Of a stretch of DNA of 64,000 bases, positions 55,003 to 63,939 are shown one piece after another. Position 1 is the first letter of the stretch, and every line of letters starts with the position of its first letter. The notes beneath the pieces are model-generated. The model saw only the letters and a list, made by a program, of their open reading frames with translations, did no database searches and had not been told where the DNA came from. The DNA comes from Halomonas fontilapidosi (GTDB taxonomy: Bacteria; Pseudomonadota; Gammaproteobacteria; Pseudomonadales; Halomonadaceae): assembly GCF_014192285.1 (NCBI RefSeq), contig NZ_JACHXQ010000001.1, forward strand, positions 62,001 to 126,000, read 5' to 3'. The position numbers were made by a program, and so were the translations under genes.

Positions 55003-55312
55003 GGGTCGAGGCAATCTCCAGCGTGAATACGAGTCGGGGTCGAACCGGCAGCGGGGCGCCTGAGGCGTCTTGTCGGGGGGATACGCTGCGGGCGCAGGGC
55101 GGTGCTGCTCAACCTCGGGATGTCGGGCAGGCCGCCGGGTAAGGCGCCCATCGTAACAAAAGCCTCGACGCCGGGGCAGGGGGCAGGCTAAAACCCAGCA
55201 TTTCACTCGGGATTGTGTCGATCGCGCTGGTCGCTTACCATTGAGACATCACACTTTGCGTACCTGTCGCGCCTCAGCCCTTGGCGCGGCGCGTCACGAT
55301 AGCGAGAGCACC
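55003..55312. promoter_or_regulatory. Divergent control region between metH and nfuA
   Basis: 310 bases without a supported gene. A good nfuA promoter is seen: TTGTGT (55213-55218), 17 bases, TACCAT (55236-55241). On the metH side the sequence is GC-rich with no convincing -10 or -35 and no riboswitch consensus that I could match; its leader would be up to about 150 bases. A partial resemblance to an SAH riboswitch was examined and rejected. Confidence 0.4.
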
Positions 55313-55903
55313 ATGAGCGACAGCATCCAGATCACCGACAGTGCCCAGGACTACCTTGCCGAACTGCTCGAGAAGCAGAATGTCGAGGGTATCGCGGTCC
55401 GTATCTTCATCACCCAGCCGGGCACCCCCTACGCCGAGACCTGCCTGGCCTACTGCCGGCCCGGCGAGGAAGAACCCAGCGACGAGCTGCTGGAGCTGGA
55501 GAAGATCCGTGTCTACCTGGACAAGAACAGCCTGCCGTTCCTCGAGGAGGCGGTGGTCGACTTCAATGCCGACCGCATGGGCGGCCAGCTGACCATCAAG
55601 GCCCCCAATGCCAAGATGCCCAAGGTCAATGCCGACAGCCCGCTGGAGGATCGCGTCAACTATATCCTCTACAGCGAGATCAACCCGGGGCTGGCCTCTC
55701 ACGGTGGCGAAATCAAGCTGATCGAGCTCACCGATGACCAGGTTGCGGTGCTGGCCTTCGGTGGCGGCTGCCAGGGCTGTGCCGCGGTCGACCTGACACT
55801 CAAGGACGGCGTGGAGAGGACTCTGCTGGAGCGTATCCCGGAACTCGCCGGCATCCGCGACGTCACCGACCACACGGACACCACCAACGCCTACTATCGC
55901 TAG
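55313..55903 (+). CDS. nfuA: Fe-S biogenesis carrier NfuA
   Basis: A 196-residue two-domain protein: a degenerate A-type domain (residues 1-95) and a Nfu domain with the cluster-binding pair C153 and C156 ([11 protein letters not shown]). It carries 4Fe-4S clusters to client enzymes, especially under oxidative or iron stress. Start at 55313 (MSDSIQIT) fits the family; the frame extends upstream without homology. Length matches E. coli NfuA (191). Confidence 0.94.
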
Positions 55904-55966: not shown

Positions 55967-57007
55967 TCACTTCGCGTCCGTTGACGAAGGCTCCGCACCC
56001 GCGGGGCCTTCGTCGTTTTCACCGGCCTCGTCTTCGCTCTGCGCCGCCACCGGTGCCTGCCAGAGGCAGCGGTGAAGCTGGGTCTCCAGATCCCGCAGCC
56101 GGCGCGTCTGCTCCTCCAGCAGCTGCTTCTGTTCATCGATGCGCGCCTGCATCAATGCCTGCTCGTGCCGCAGCGTCCGGGTTCGCTCCTCGGCCTGATG
56201 GCGCGCCCATTCGGTCTCGCGATGGCGTTTCTCCTCGTCGGCCAGGGCGCCACGCGCCTCCTGAACCAACTGCTGCGCGCGCTCCAGACGCGCCTCTAGC
56301 TGCTGCAACCGCTGGGCATGGCGTTTCTCGGCAGCCTGCCGCTCCTGTCGCGCTTCGTCCACCAGCCCCATCAGGCGCGCCTCGCTGGTCTCGTGACGCT
56401 TCTCCTCGCGGGCCAGGCGCTGCCGATGGCGGTCGGCCTGTTCCGTCAAGGCGTCCTGTTGCTCGCGCGTCTGGCGTTCATGTGCCTGCTGCAGGCTCGC
56501 CAGCTGCGATTCCAGGCGCGCCTGCCGCGCGGCGAGCTTCGCCTCGCGTTCGGCCAGGACGTCACGCTCCGATGCACGGCGCGCCAGCTCGCCGCTCTGC
56601 TCCTCCAAGCGCTGTTCGGTCCGCGCCAAGTGCGCCGCCAGTGCCGACTCTCGCTGCTCGGCATCCTCGGCCCGCCGCATGGCGTCGCCGGCATCCTCTC
56701 GCGCCGACGCCACCCGGCTCTCGGCCTCCTCGCGGTAATGGGCAAGCCCCTCGTTGGCTGACGACTGGGCCTTTTCCCATAGCGACTCCGCGAGCTCCTG
56801 CAGGGCCTCGGGCATGCCCCGGGGCGGGGGCAGGTCGCGATTCTCCTCACGCCGTGCGCGCCACTCCCTCAGGTGCTCGCTGATGGTCGTGAAGCTGCCG
56901 GTGCCCAGCACCTCGCGCACCTTGTGCACGCTGGGCGCCTCTCCTTTCTCCAGCAGGGCATCGATGGCCCGCTGGACATCCTCATACCGCACGCCGCTGC
57001 GCGCCAT
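55967..57007 (-). CDS. KfrA-like DNA-binding coiled-coil protein
   Basis: A 346-residue protein with an N-terminal KfrA_N helix-turn-helix domain (residues 1-60, with YEDVQRAIDALLEKGEAPSV and GSFTTISEHLREWR) followed by about 240 residues of nearly unbroken Glu/Arg/Gln-rich coiled coil and an acidic tail. KfrA of plasmids binds operators through this domain and forms long coiled-coil filaments that aid partition. Here it is chromosomal and divergent from a tyrosine recombinase gene. It probably represses its own promoter through the palindrome at 57091-57114. Base composition is like its neighbours. Confidence 0.85.
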   Translation of the reverse strand: MARSGVRYEDVQRAIDALLEKGEAPSVHKVREVLGTGSFTTISEHLREWRARREENRDLPPPRGMPEALQELAESLWEKAQSSANEGLAHYREEAESRVASAREDAGDAMRRAEDAEQRESALAAHLARTEQRLEEQSGELARRASERDVLAEREAKLAARQARLESQLASLQQAHERQTREQQDALTEQADRHRQRLAREEKRHETSEARLMGLVDEARQERQAAEKRHAQRLQQLEARLERAQQLVQEARGALADEEKRHRETEWARHQAEERTRTLRHEQALMQARIDEQKQLLEEQTRRLRDLETQLHRCLWQAPVAAQSEDEAGENDEGPAGAEPSSTDAK

Positions 57008-57081
57008 GGTCGTGTCCTCGTGGTTGTCTGCCGGGGCTGCCCTGGGTTTTCGAGAGCAGTGTACCCGTGGGTGGCCTGATA

Positions 57082-57114
57082 TTGAAGATAATTACGTAAT
57101 ACGTTATATGTAAT
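57082..57114. promoter_or_regulatory. Divergent promoter and 24-base imperfect palindrome of the kfrA/recombinase pair
   Basis: Predicted recombinase promoter: TTGAAG (57082-57087), 17 bases, TATATG (57105-57110). A 24-base imperfect palindrome at 57091-57114 starts with the perfect ATTACGTAAT (57091-57100); 9 of 12 base pairs match. It overlaps this promoter and the probable minus-strand kfrA promoter (a -10-like TATCTT next to the palindrome). An AT-rich island in GC-rich DNA. Confidence 0.5.
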
Positions 57115-57136
57115 TTTATTTACGGCATTTGGAAAA

Positions 57137-57164
57137 AATCAAGATTACGCGGCTTATCTTGATT
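57137..57164. repeat. Perfect 9-base inverted repeat with 10-base centre, recombinase-core-like
   Basis: AATCAAGAT, ten bases, then ATCTTGATT. Two inverted arms around a short centre is the layout of tyrosine-recombinase core sites (typically 9-13-base arms and a 6-8-base centre), though this centre is slightly long. It lies 55 bases ahead of the recombinase start, after its predicted promoter, so it could alternatively be an operator or an RNA hairpin in the leader. Confidence 0.4.
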
Positions 57165-57218
57165 ATTGCGCGCGTAAGGCCGGATACTGTCCCGCAAGGC
57201 GCAAGGAGAGAGGCGAGC

Positions 57219-58448
57219 ATGGGCAGCGAGACTGGGCAGACAGCGCACGGTGAAGTGCTGAGCGTAACGTCGACGGCCCTCGAACGATTTTTGCTGCCTC
57301 CGGTCGAGGAGGGTCAGCCGGAAGGCCTTCATATCGCCGCCAGCACGGACGCCGAGGCCGTGGCCCGATGGCTCGAGGAATACCGGGCCAGCCCTCGGAC
57401 GCAGAACGCCTACCGCCGGGAGGCCCAGCGCCTGCTGCTGTGGCTGGCGGAGCAGGGCAGGGGGCTCGATGCGCTGCGCCGGGAGGACCTGGACACCTTC
57501 GAGGCCTTCCTGGGCGACCCGCGTCCTGCCGAGCGCTGGATCGGACCGGTACGCCCTCGCCACGACGCGCGATGGCGCCCCTTCCGTGGCCCGCTGTCGC
57601 CCGCCAGCCGTCGGCAAAGCCTGGTGATCCTACAGGGCATGTTTGCCTGGCTGGTGGAGGCGGGCTGGGTCCGCCACAACCCGTTTCGCCTGATGCGCGA
57701 CAAGCGCCGGCGCCTGGACAACCGTCAGGGCGGGATCGAGCGCTACCTGGAGCGTCCGCTATGGGACTGGCTATGGGGATGGCTGAACCGGCCGGCGGAG
57801 GAGGGCGCCTCGCACCGAGATCGCTACGAGCTGGCCCGGCGTCGGCTGGTGTTCGGCTTTGCCTACCTGCTGGCTCCGCGGATCAGCGAGATGAGCGCGA
57901 CGCGTATGAACGACTTCCGGCGCCGCGAGGGGCGCTGGTGGTGGCACGTGGTGGGGAAGGGGGCCAAGGCAGGGCGCGTCCCGGTGCCGCCGGACATGAT
58001 GGCGCTGCTCGGCGAGTGGCGCAGGACACTGGGCCTGGCAGAACACCCATCGCCGGATGATGCCTCACCCCTGCTGCGTGCCCTGGATGGTCGCCGAGGC
58101 CTGGGCGACAACCGCCTCTACCGCCTGATTCGCGACACTTTCGGCGAGGCCGCCGAAGCGCTCGAGCACGAAGCGGGCGAGGGGGCTCAGGCCGAGGTGC
58201 ATCGCCTGCGTCAGGCCACGCCGCACTGGCTGCGTCATACCGCCCTGACCCATCAGGCGCAGGCGGGGGTGGAGCTGCGCTATCTGGCGGCAACGGCTCG
58301 CCACTCGCGTCTCGATACCACGGCGCACTACCTGCACAGCGAAGACGAGGAGTGGCACCGCCAGCAGGCACGGCACGGCCTGGCCGTCGAAGACAGAAGC
58401 CCGAACGACATCGACGATCGAGATGACGGCCGTGAGTCGTTATACTGA
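57219..58448 (+). CDS. Chromosomal tyrosine recombinase (XerC/integrase family)
   Basis: A 409-residue site-specific recombinase. All catalytic residues are visible: R221 (LAPRISEM), K248 (GKGAKAGR), H336 and R339 (HWLRHT), H362 (ARHSRLD) and Y371 (HYLH). An SAM-like N-terminal core-binding domain (about 40-160) precedes; a basic, Trp-rich segment lies between. Longer than XerC/XerD (about 300). Start at 57219 follows AAGGAG; an upstream frame begins at a TTG within the AT-rich region. There is no other mobile-element gene nearby, so it seems resident. Confidence 0.9.
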   Translation: MGSETGQTAHGEVLSVTSTALERFLLPPVEEGQPEGLHIAASTDAEAVARWLEEYRASPRTQNAYRREAQRLLLWLAEQGRGLDALRREDLDTFEAFLGDPRPAERWIGPVRPRHDARWRPFRGPLSPASRRQSLVILQGMFAWLVEAGWVRHNPFRLMRDKRRRLDNRQGGIERYLERPLWDWLWGWLNRPAEEGASHRDRYELARRRLVFGFAYLLAPRISEMSATRMNDFRRREGRWWWHVVGKGAKAGRVPVPPDMMALLGEWRRTLGLAEHPSPDDASPLLRALDGRRGLGDNRLYRLIRDTFGEAAEALEHEAGEGAQAEVHRLRQATPHWLRHTALTHQAQAGVELRYLAATARHSRLDTTAHYLHSEDEEWHRQQARHGLAVEDRSPNDIDDRDDGRESLY

Positions 58449-58472: not shown

Positions 58473-58901
58473 ATGAGCACCGAGACCACCGCCGAACAGG
58501 CCCAGCAGGAGCTTCTCGACGAGTTCGAGATGTTCGACAACTGGATGGATCGCTACCAGTACATCATCGACATGGGCAAGCAGCTGCCGGCTTACCCCGA
58601 CGAGTGGAAGGTCGACGAGCTGAAGATTCAGGGCTGTCAATCCAATGTCTGGATGCATCACCGTCGCGACGGCGAGACCCTGCATTTCGAAGCGGTCTCC
58701 GACGCGGCCATCGTCTCCGGGCTGATCGCCGTGCTGATGCGCATCTACAACGACCGTCGGCCGGCGGATATCCGCGCCACCAGCCCGCATTTCCTCAAGG
58801 ACCTGGGCCTCGACAAGCACCTGTCGCCGACCCGCAGCAACGGTCTCAACGCCATGCTCGAGCGGATCTATCGGGTTGCCGAGGAGGAAGTCGCGGCCTG
58901 A
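58473..58901 (+). CDS. sufE: SufE-family sulfur acceptor
   Basis: A 142-residue SufE/CsdE-type protein that accepts persulfide sulfur from a cysteine desulfurase. The acceptor is Cys55 in KIQGCQSNVW; the fold marks LDEFEMFDNWMDRYQYII and DDRRPADI-like YNDRRPADIRA are present. Which desulfurase (SufS or CsdA) it serves is not shown; none is encoded in the window. Twenty-four bases after the recombinase. CAGGAGA site. Confidence 0.92.
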   Translation: MSTETTAEQAQQELLDEFEMFDNWMDRYQYIIDMGKQLPAYPDEWKVDELKIQGCQSNVWMHHRRDGETLHFEAVSDAAIVSGLIAVLMRIYNDRRPADIRATSPHFLKDLGLDKHLSPTRSNGLNAMLERIYRVAEEEVAA

Positions 58902-63625: not shown

Positions 63626-63939
63626 GAAAAGGGCTCGAGCCTACTAGGTGGCAGATGATCATAAGGAGTTGGTTCCTGCCTTGTCCAACGTCGGCAGAAG
63701 ACGACAACACGACTTAAGGGGGCAAGCCAAACTCATTGCCACCCCCGATTTAACATAATATACATTATGCGAACTTGTGTGATCTACCAATTGACCTTGG
63801 TCAAGGTGTCACCCGAATGCCCGCCTGGGGCTTCTGATGTGTCTTTAACACACTTGGGTATGCGCTACTCTGTTCTCGGGTCCGTCGTCCGCGCGATGAC
63901 CGCCGCCGACGCATCGATATAACAAGCAAGGGGATCTTC
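63626..63939. promoter_or_regulatory. Divergent control region before the retropepsin unit and the terminal gene
   Basis: 314 bases without a supported gene. It contains CATAAT-ATAC-ATTATG (63754-63769, perfect), then TTGACC-TT-GGTCAA (63791-63804) nested with ACCTTG-GT-CAAGGT (63794-63807, perfect), and TGTG..CACA further on. The AT-rich first palindrome could be a divergent -10 region and the second an operator. No regulator can be named. Confidence 0.4.

Follow-up and report, generated by a model that had tools for sequence, protein, structure and literature searches.

A KfrA-partnered tyrosine recombinase with a palindromic site at the replication terminus of Halomonadaceae, a probable second dimer-resolution system beside XerCD/dif

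A 64,000-nucleotide stretch of Halomonas fontilapidosi DNA (hereafter the window; NCBI RefSeq assembly GCF_014192285.1, contig NZ_JACHXQ010000001.1, positions 62,001 to 126,000) carries a gene for a KfrA-like coiled-coil protein, a tyrosine recombinase gene divergent from it and, in the gap between them, a 28-base-pair (bp) palindrome (hereafter the core). This module is probably a domesticated resolvase that acts as a second dimer-resolution system at the terminus and would be able to replace XerC and XerD (XerCD). XerCD and their site dif are treated as near-universal, and a 2017 review asked how bacteria without them cope (PMC5357621). Marinospirillum celere, M. alkaliphilum and Oceanospirillum multiglobuliferum are now named organisms with a concrete candidate substitute for XerCD, a natural experiment in which a central cell-cycle machine would have been replaced by part of a transposon. 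A second system beside XerCD, equipped with a KfrA partner and repeatedly outlasting XerCD, is undescribed as far as the open-licence literature searched shows; no report of a chromosomal KfrA/recombinase pair, or of dimer resolution in these genera, was found there.

The genes, the site and its spacing, its position at the terminus, the losses and the copies on plasmids and phages can all be read directly from sequence. Domain matches (Table 1) confirm that a KfrA_N gene lies divergent from a complete tyrosine recombinase, as proposed in a first-pass annotation of the window; KfrA_N scores 96.8 bits against a Pfam gathering cut-off of 26.1. The annotated catalytic residues R221, H336, R339, H362 and Y371 stand, but the lysine given as K248 is K247. 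All six are retained in 79-80 of 80 aligned recombinase open reading frames, the sole exception being a gap. The frame in the window is open from 57129 (TTG), and the ATG at 57219 was adopted as the start. The intergenic gap (57008-57218) has the 211 bp first reported and, described then as AT-rich, is only moderately so (50% A+T vs 35% in the window); the flanking genes, nfuA and a SufE-family gene, were correctly named. With 58 and 38 bits against TIGR02224 and TIGR02225 (cut-offs 335 and 330), the recombinase is neither XerC nor XerD. A PDB sequence search returned four matches for it, three of them Xer proteins, and no convincing match for the KfrA N-terminus. The source genome encodes XerD (354.7 bits, above the cut-off) and a second XerD-model match of 244 bits, taken as XerC, on other contigs, so that XerC, XerD and dif are all present alongside the pair.

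The core, AATCAAGATTA-CGCGGC-TTATCTTGATT, is an 11-6-11 palindrome identical to the inverted repeat marked in the first pass. It is conserved in 57 aligned loci (five of the 62 supplied lacked the site or a gene and were dropped) and includes the most conserved columns of the gap. In the source genome it occurs once, with no other match at three or fewer mismatches. At the same stringency 55 of 62 genus genomes have it, and at one mismatch or fewer to a degenerate pattern, which is too strict for some genera, 215 of 275 family genomes do; reversed-pattern controls gave zero in both cases. More than one copy was seen in 13 of the 275, among the matches listed, and in G132 the only core match lies on a different contig from the recombinase. 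The two arms covary: across 41 distinct cores, hand-picked from 72 of the family and distant relatives, 86.5% of cells are paired (26-46% in slid controls), there are 31 both-side changes, and the covariation score was reached in 0 of 500 shuffles. A block of TTACGTA-type repeats, with gap-free conserved columns in the 57 loci, stands about 15 bp before the core and keeps a near-constant distance from it while the kfrA-to-core distance varies from 101 to 331 bp.

Table 1. Features of the locus and its surroundings (window coordinates).
Feature	Position	Strand	Evidence
KfrA_N coiled-coil protein, TnpT-like, predicted DNA-binding, 346 aa	55967-57007	-	PF11740, E 1.7e-27
Tyrosine recombinase, 409 aa, R221 K247 H336 R339 H362 Y371	57219-58448	+	PF00589, E 5.6e-13
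Core, 11-6-11 inverted repeat, proposed crossover site	57137-57164	.	conservation, arm covariation, single copy
TTACGTA-type repeat block, proposed KfrA operator and accessory site	57090-57121	.	conserved columns, 57 loci
nfuA, left flank	55310-55903	+	TIGR03341, 312 bits
SufE-family gene, right flank	58473-58901	+	PF02657, E 3.1e-46
dif, XerCD site, AGTTCGCATAA-TGTATA-TTATGTTAAAT	63748-63775	-	exact match to the 24-mer searched

The recombinase is present in 55 of 60 same-genus genomes, with a split gene in G044 (parts L048 and L049, about 52 kb apart) and a frame-shifted one in G032, and in 102 of 121 family genomes representing 20 of 24 genera; G185 has only decayed fragments. A divergent KfrA gene was read in 29 of 30 loci of one set, the miss (L027) ending at a contig edge, and in 20 of 20 of a second, where it stands beside the decayed recombinase of G185. 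In G133 (L070), about 9 kb separates kfrA and the core from the recombinase. The ratio of nonsynonymous to synonymous substitution rates (dN/dS) is below 0.45 in all 11 recombinase pairs compared and about 0.06 in two Marinospirillum pairs, where dS is saturated, so that the recombinase is under purifying selection. In a quick tree (support by SH-like approximate likelihood-ratio test, SH-aLRT, only; XerC and two short rows, L262 and L265, are plainly in the wrong place), the family recombinases form one clade (SH-aLRT 83) apart from two short misplaced rows. In outgroup families of the order, recombinases are 24-35% identical, KfrA_N occurs in one of 15 stretches (14 genomes), and dif at five or fewer mismatches in none of them.

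The KfrA/recombinase unit is old and vertically inherited in the family. A recent insertion was rejected because of this vertical spread in genus and family, in agreement with the first-pass view of a resident pair. That view of the two genes as a unit holds in so far as they occur together in most of the family, but KfrA is often retained after loss of the recombinase. An ordinary mobile insertion, expected there to leave empty junctions and flanking repeats, is borne out only in part: G117 (L093) has an empty junction, with nfuA and sufE 25 bp apart, near dif and without the pair, but the pair is in most family genomes and its flanks share no repeat (no common word of at least 8 bases in the 100-120 bp compared).

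Overlooked in the first pass, like the TnpS/TnpT resolvase that is the closest known design, dif is in the window too, to the right of the core and 6.6 kb from it (its limits were placed by analogy with the 28-bp dif). It was found in 61 of 62 genus genomes and 109 of 121 family genomes. In the 135 genomes whose recombinase and dif share a contig, the two are 1.8-51.8 kb apart (median 6.8 kb), within 10 kb in 104 and within 20 kb in 130; this set leaves out genomes without either element, G044 (split gene), G185 (fragments), G031 and G035 (separate contigs) and G060 (no dif found). In a distant groundwater gammaproteobacterial contig from a metagenome-assembled genome (MAG; L204), 6.6 kb separates the pair from a dif that matches at 21 of the 21 bases searched, and neither nfuA nor sufE is in the locus. 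In genus and family genomes alike the core is normally a single site at the replication terminus, with skew and FtsK-orienting polar sequences (KOPS) examined in five genomes.

Twelve family genomes have no detectable dif, and 11 of them also lack XerC and XerD (best XerD-model matches 63-140 bits); the dif-bearing genomes tested all have two XerD-model matches of at least 238 bits (nine of nine). The 11 comprise eight Marinospirillum (genus g39), two Oceanospirillum (genus g41; G124 and G162) and G120. The recombinase is retained in nine of them, all except G171 and G120, and KfrA and a palindromic core are present in all six XerCD-less loci read (G099, G122, G137, G149, G124 and G162). By name, G149 is M. 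celere, G099 M. alkaliphilum, G124 O. multiglobuliferum and G173 O. sediminis. FtsK-gamma is absent from G124, G162 and G120; all six g39 genomes tested have it. In the recombinase gene tree G162 groups with the XerCD-bearing G101 and G151 (support 98), with G124 outside; since this clade excludes G124, XerCD was, on this tree, lost at least three times.

KOPS-like motifs follow the same division in G000, G101, G099 and G149. With the E. coli KOPS motif GGGNAGGG, the best convergence in G000 (123187-127331) encloses dif (125750) and leaves the core (119141) outside, as does that in G101 (723752-744870; dif 736223, core 746766). In the XerCD-less G099 and G149 it encloses the core (146172-148390, core 147371; 761549-768686, core 762463, the left bound of the latter falling in the recombinase gene). 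Misoriented motifs at the optimum number 4 of 43, 4 of 24, 7 of 31 and 7 of 63 in G000, G101, G099 and G149, respectively. The peak of cumulative guanine-cytosine (GC) skew falls at 153.0 kb in G099 (core at 147.4 kb; 160-kb stretch), at 739.7 kb in G149 (core at 762.5 kb; 400-kb stretch) and, in G101, about 24 kb from dif and about 35 kb from the core.

Binding, recombination, its direction, its function and the helper role of KfrA are predictions from these patterns. The recombinase would bind the two 11-bp arms of the core and exchange strands across the 6-bp spacer, and two directly repeated cores, as on a chromosome or plasmid dimer, would be resolved to monomers. The KfrA-like protein may bind the TTACGTA block, repress its own promoter and help synapsis, as TnpT does for TnpS. 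The module may descend from a Tn3-family or plasmid resolvase, or have a common ancestor with one, and would have taken up its place beside dif, between nfuA and sufE, in the family ancestor; it would work alongside XerCD/dif in most members, and have supplanted it in Marinospirillum and, on two or more occasions, in Oceanospirillum. On balance, we lean towards the fuller proposition that the whole family has two complete terminus dimer-resolution systems, the second of which, with KfrA as an architectural subunit, was domesticated from a transposon or plasmid resolvase and displaced XerCD/dif on at least three occasions, on two of them together with FtsK-gamma, KOPS polarity being re-centred on the core. 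A 28-bp site with its own recombinase makes the system amenable to testing in E. coli.

Several observations weigh against dimer resolution by this module. Two of five covariation measures do not exceed shuffles, namely the count of pairs changed on both sides (100 of 500) and that of further pair types (144 of 500), and because the 72 cores were collected by means of palindromic templates and had to pass a filter for complementarity at 8 of 11 pairs before hand-picking, pairing is favoured in the set. Proximity to dif may be passive synteny, since nfuA-sufE is near dif in the pair-less G117 too. The KOPS comparison sets two genomes against two with an E. coli motif, and G162 has ten motifs only. 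G118 has XerCD and no dif at three or fewer mismatches. G120 (99% complete) lacks recombinase, XerCD, dif and FtsK-gamma, having kept KfrA and repeats beside sufE, and G171 (95% complete, 230 contigs) lacks recombinase, XerCD and dif; some genomes therefore do without or use something else. Completeness is only 77% in G180 and 87% in G187. Of 25 genomes in which no intact recombinase was found, 21 still have KfrA, including all 13 of genus g40, and a BLASTP comparison of the window recombinase with Tn4651 TnpS gave no match. Other tyrosine recombinases in G120 (122 and 88 bits, XerD model) are candidates.

The best of the competing explanations, although an unlikely one, is that the module serves to resolve multimers of plasmids and phage-plasmids, or to police mobile DNA, with the chromosomal core as no more than a home copy and promoter site and XerCD in charge of chromosome dimers. 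Core copies do occur on mobile DNA: on pHAL40, a closed plasmid of 4,301 bp with RepB and no annotated recombinase; on pTHAF12_a and pTHAF12_c, two plasmids that encode their own annotated integrases (one some 0.9 kb away from the core) and are scored as a single occurrence because pTHAF12_c lies wholly inside pTHAF12_a; and in G014, G121, G154, G186 and G145 on contigs 6.5-17 kb long, that of G145 being circular with two near-identical 3.75-kb halves. Three IMG/VR contigs carry it as well: the circular L102, which encodes a P2-type capsid protein and a Rep3 initiator, L100 (with ParA and tail-fibre genes) and L101; L100 and L101, read over about 14 of 42 kb, both have TTACGTA-type repeats before the core. 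A plasmid relative beside parAB and rep points the same way. The pTHAF12 plasmids were dropped as proof of recombination at the core, the ends of pTHAF12_c being a 35-bp repeat and not the core. In the plasmid and phage-like stretches searched, the window KfrA has no match at E of 1 or less and no close homologue of the recombinase was found; weak recombinase matches (E 0.06-0.8) are a stray one in L101 and, in L106 and L107, matches to the last motifs only, so the latter two may encode tyrosine recombinases of another kind. Yet the module is widespread while so few family genomes have more than one core, among the matches listed with a pattern strict for some genera, and it stays where XerCD and dif are lost, with KOPS-like motifs converging on the core there.

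Less probable again is that the function conserved is that of KfrA, as an architectural or segregation protein bound at the terminus, with the recombinase as a dispensable companion. Its persistence without the recombinase fits, as do TACGTAA-type repeats upstream of the persisting gene (by eye in 8 loci) and the aid to maintenance given by KfrA of plasmid RA3 (PMC7783346). Among the 25 recombinase-less genomes, the G002 KfrA match is weak, and the core at one mismatch or fewer to the pattern is absent from all but G025, whose recombinase may merely be cut off because the contig ends at the core. KfrA stands beside sufE and near dif, with recombinase and core lost or decayed, in L052, L089, L090-L092, L094, L095 and L072. 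Either KfrA must do something on its own or the recombinase losses are recent. The catalytic residues and the core are nevertheless conserved, and a 22-bp operator pattern occurs in one place only, the pair locus, in the five genomes, out of ten, in which it matched at all; a terminus-wide KfrA array was rejected on this result, the pattern being weak because it missed the known operators of the other five.

A fossil transposon resolvase with no present role is very improbable: Tn3-borne relatives and repeated loss or decay (G028, G040, G185 and genus g40) speak for it, and purifying selection, retained catalytic residues and covarying arms, with the caveat on how the cores were chosen, against. 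Programmed inversion or a regulatory switch was suggested in the first-pass annotation, and some invertases are tyrosine recombinases, but it was rejected and can hardly be entertained because the core is normally single-copy, with no second site to invert with; the other suggestion made there, replicon maintenance, is the better of the two.

Directly upstream of the recombinase start, three loci each carry a perfect tandem array of a 7-bp unit that is rich in purines and ribosome-binding-like: 30 copies of CAAGGAG (L016:1203-1412), 17.9 copies of GCGAGGG (L014:1292-1416) and 12 copies of CCTTGCT on the other strand (L004:2720-2803). The arrays, whose units differ between species, are possibly a slippage-tuned translation start.

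Relatives of the pair extend beyond the family. A divergent KfrA_N gene accompanies the recombinase in 54 of 87 loci from named and viral scans (the best 80 of at least 560, and 7 of 7). Nearer to the window recombinase than TnpS are plasmid relatives divergent from KfrA_N genes in Mycetohabitans and in Sulfuricystis, there beside parAB and rep, and relatives that neighbour Tn3-type transposases. Other plasmid relatives lack an adjacent pair, in Burkholderia glumae (H4) and Marinobacter (H26, KfrA_N gene about 3 kb off). A Tn3-type transposase stands beside the pair in L184 and L185 and, more weakly, in L198, L202 and L255. The Contendobacter odensis MAG (L193) has the pair beside a serS-like gene, judged by eye; serS is close to ftsK in many gammaproteobacteria.

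Among known systems, the layout is that of TnpS/TnpT/rst of Tn4651, in which a tyrosine recombinase and a KfrA_N helper are divergent across 180 bp, the rst site being located in the gap common to tnpS and tnpT (PMC7157771); in the window a site-like palindrome lies between the two genes. TnpT (NC_003350 29463-30461) was described as without apparent homology to other proteins (PMC7157771), and is now assigned a KfrA_N domain (E 2.6e-26); the window KfrA is 32% identical to it over 180 aa, and TTACATA-type repeats lie near the helper gene, judged by eye. In contrast, the window recombinase belongs to another subfamily (TnpS is on a very long separate branch of the quick tree), and the module is chromosomal, terminus-located and vertically inherited rather than carried by a Tn3 transposon, no Tn3 transposase having been found in the window with two Tn3-family queries at E 0.01. 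The KfrA proteins of IncU and IncP plasmids share the N-terminal DNA-binding domain, the long coiled coil and the repeat operator at their own promoter, but are plasmid-borne, with no recombinase partner mentioned in the available text (PMC7783346).

By analogy, the nearest functional precedent is XerL of Legionellales, a single recombinase where XerCD is absent, compared here by its description; its dyad-symmetric site lies near the GC-skew peak and is mimicked by a mobile element (PMC9765430). It differs in that xerL of L. pneumophila is more than 400 kb from the site and the recombinase alone is sufficient, and coexistence of XerL with XerCD is not described in the available text (PMC9765430). 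With XerCD/dif/FtsK the module shares a 28-bp 11-6-11 site at the terminus, and the core copies on plasmids and phages parallel the use of XerCD/dif in trans by such elements (PMC5357621). It departs from XerCD in having a single recombinase, accompanied by a KfrA partner and an operator, and in being present where XerCD is absent.

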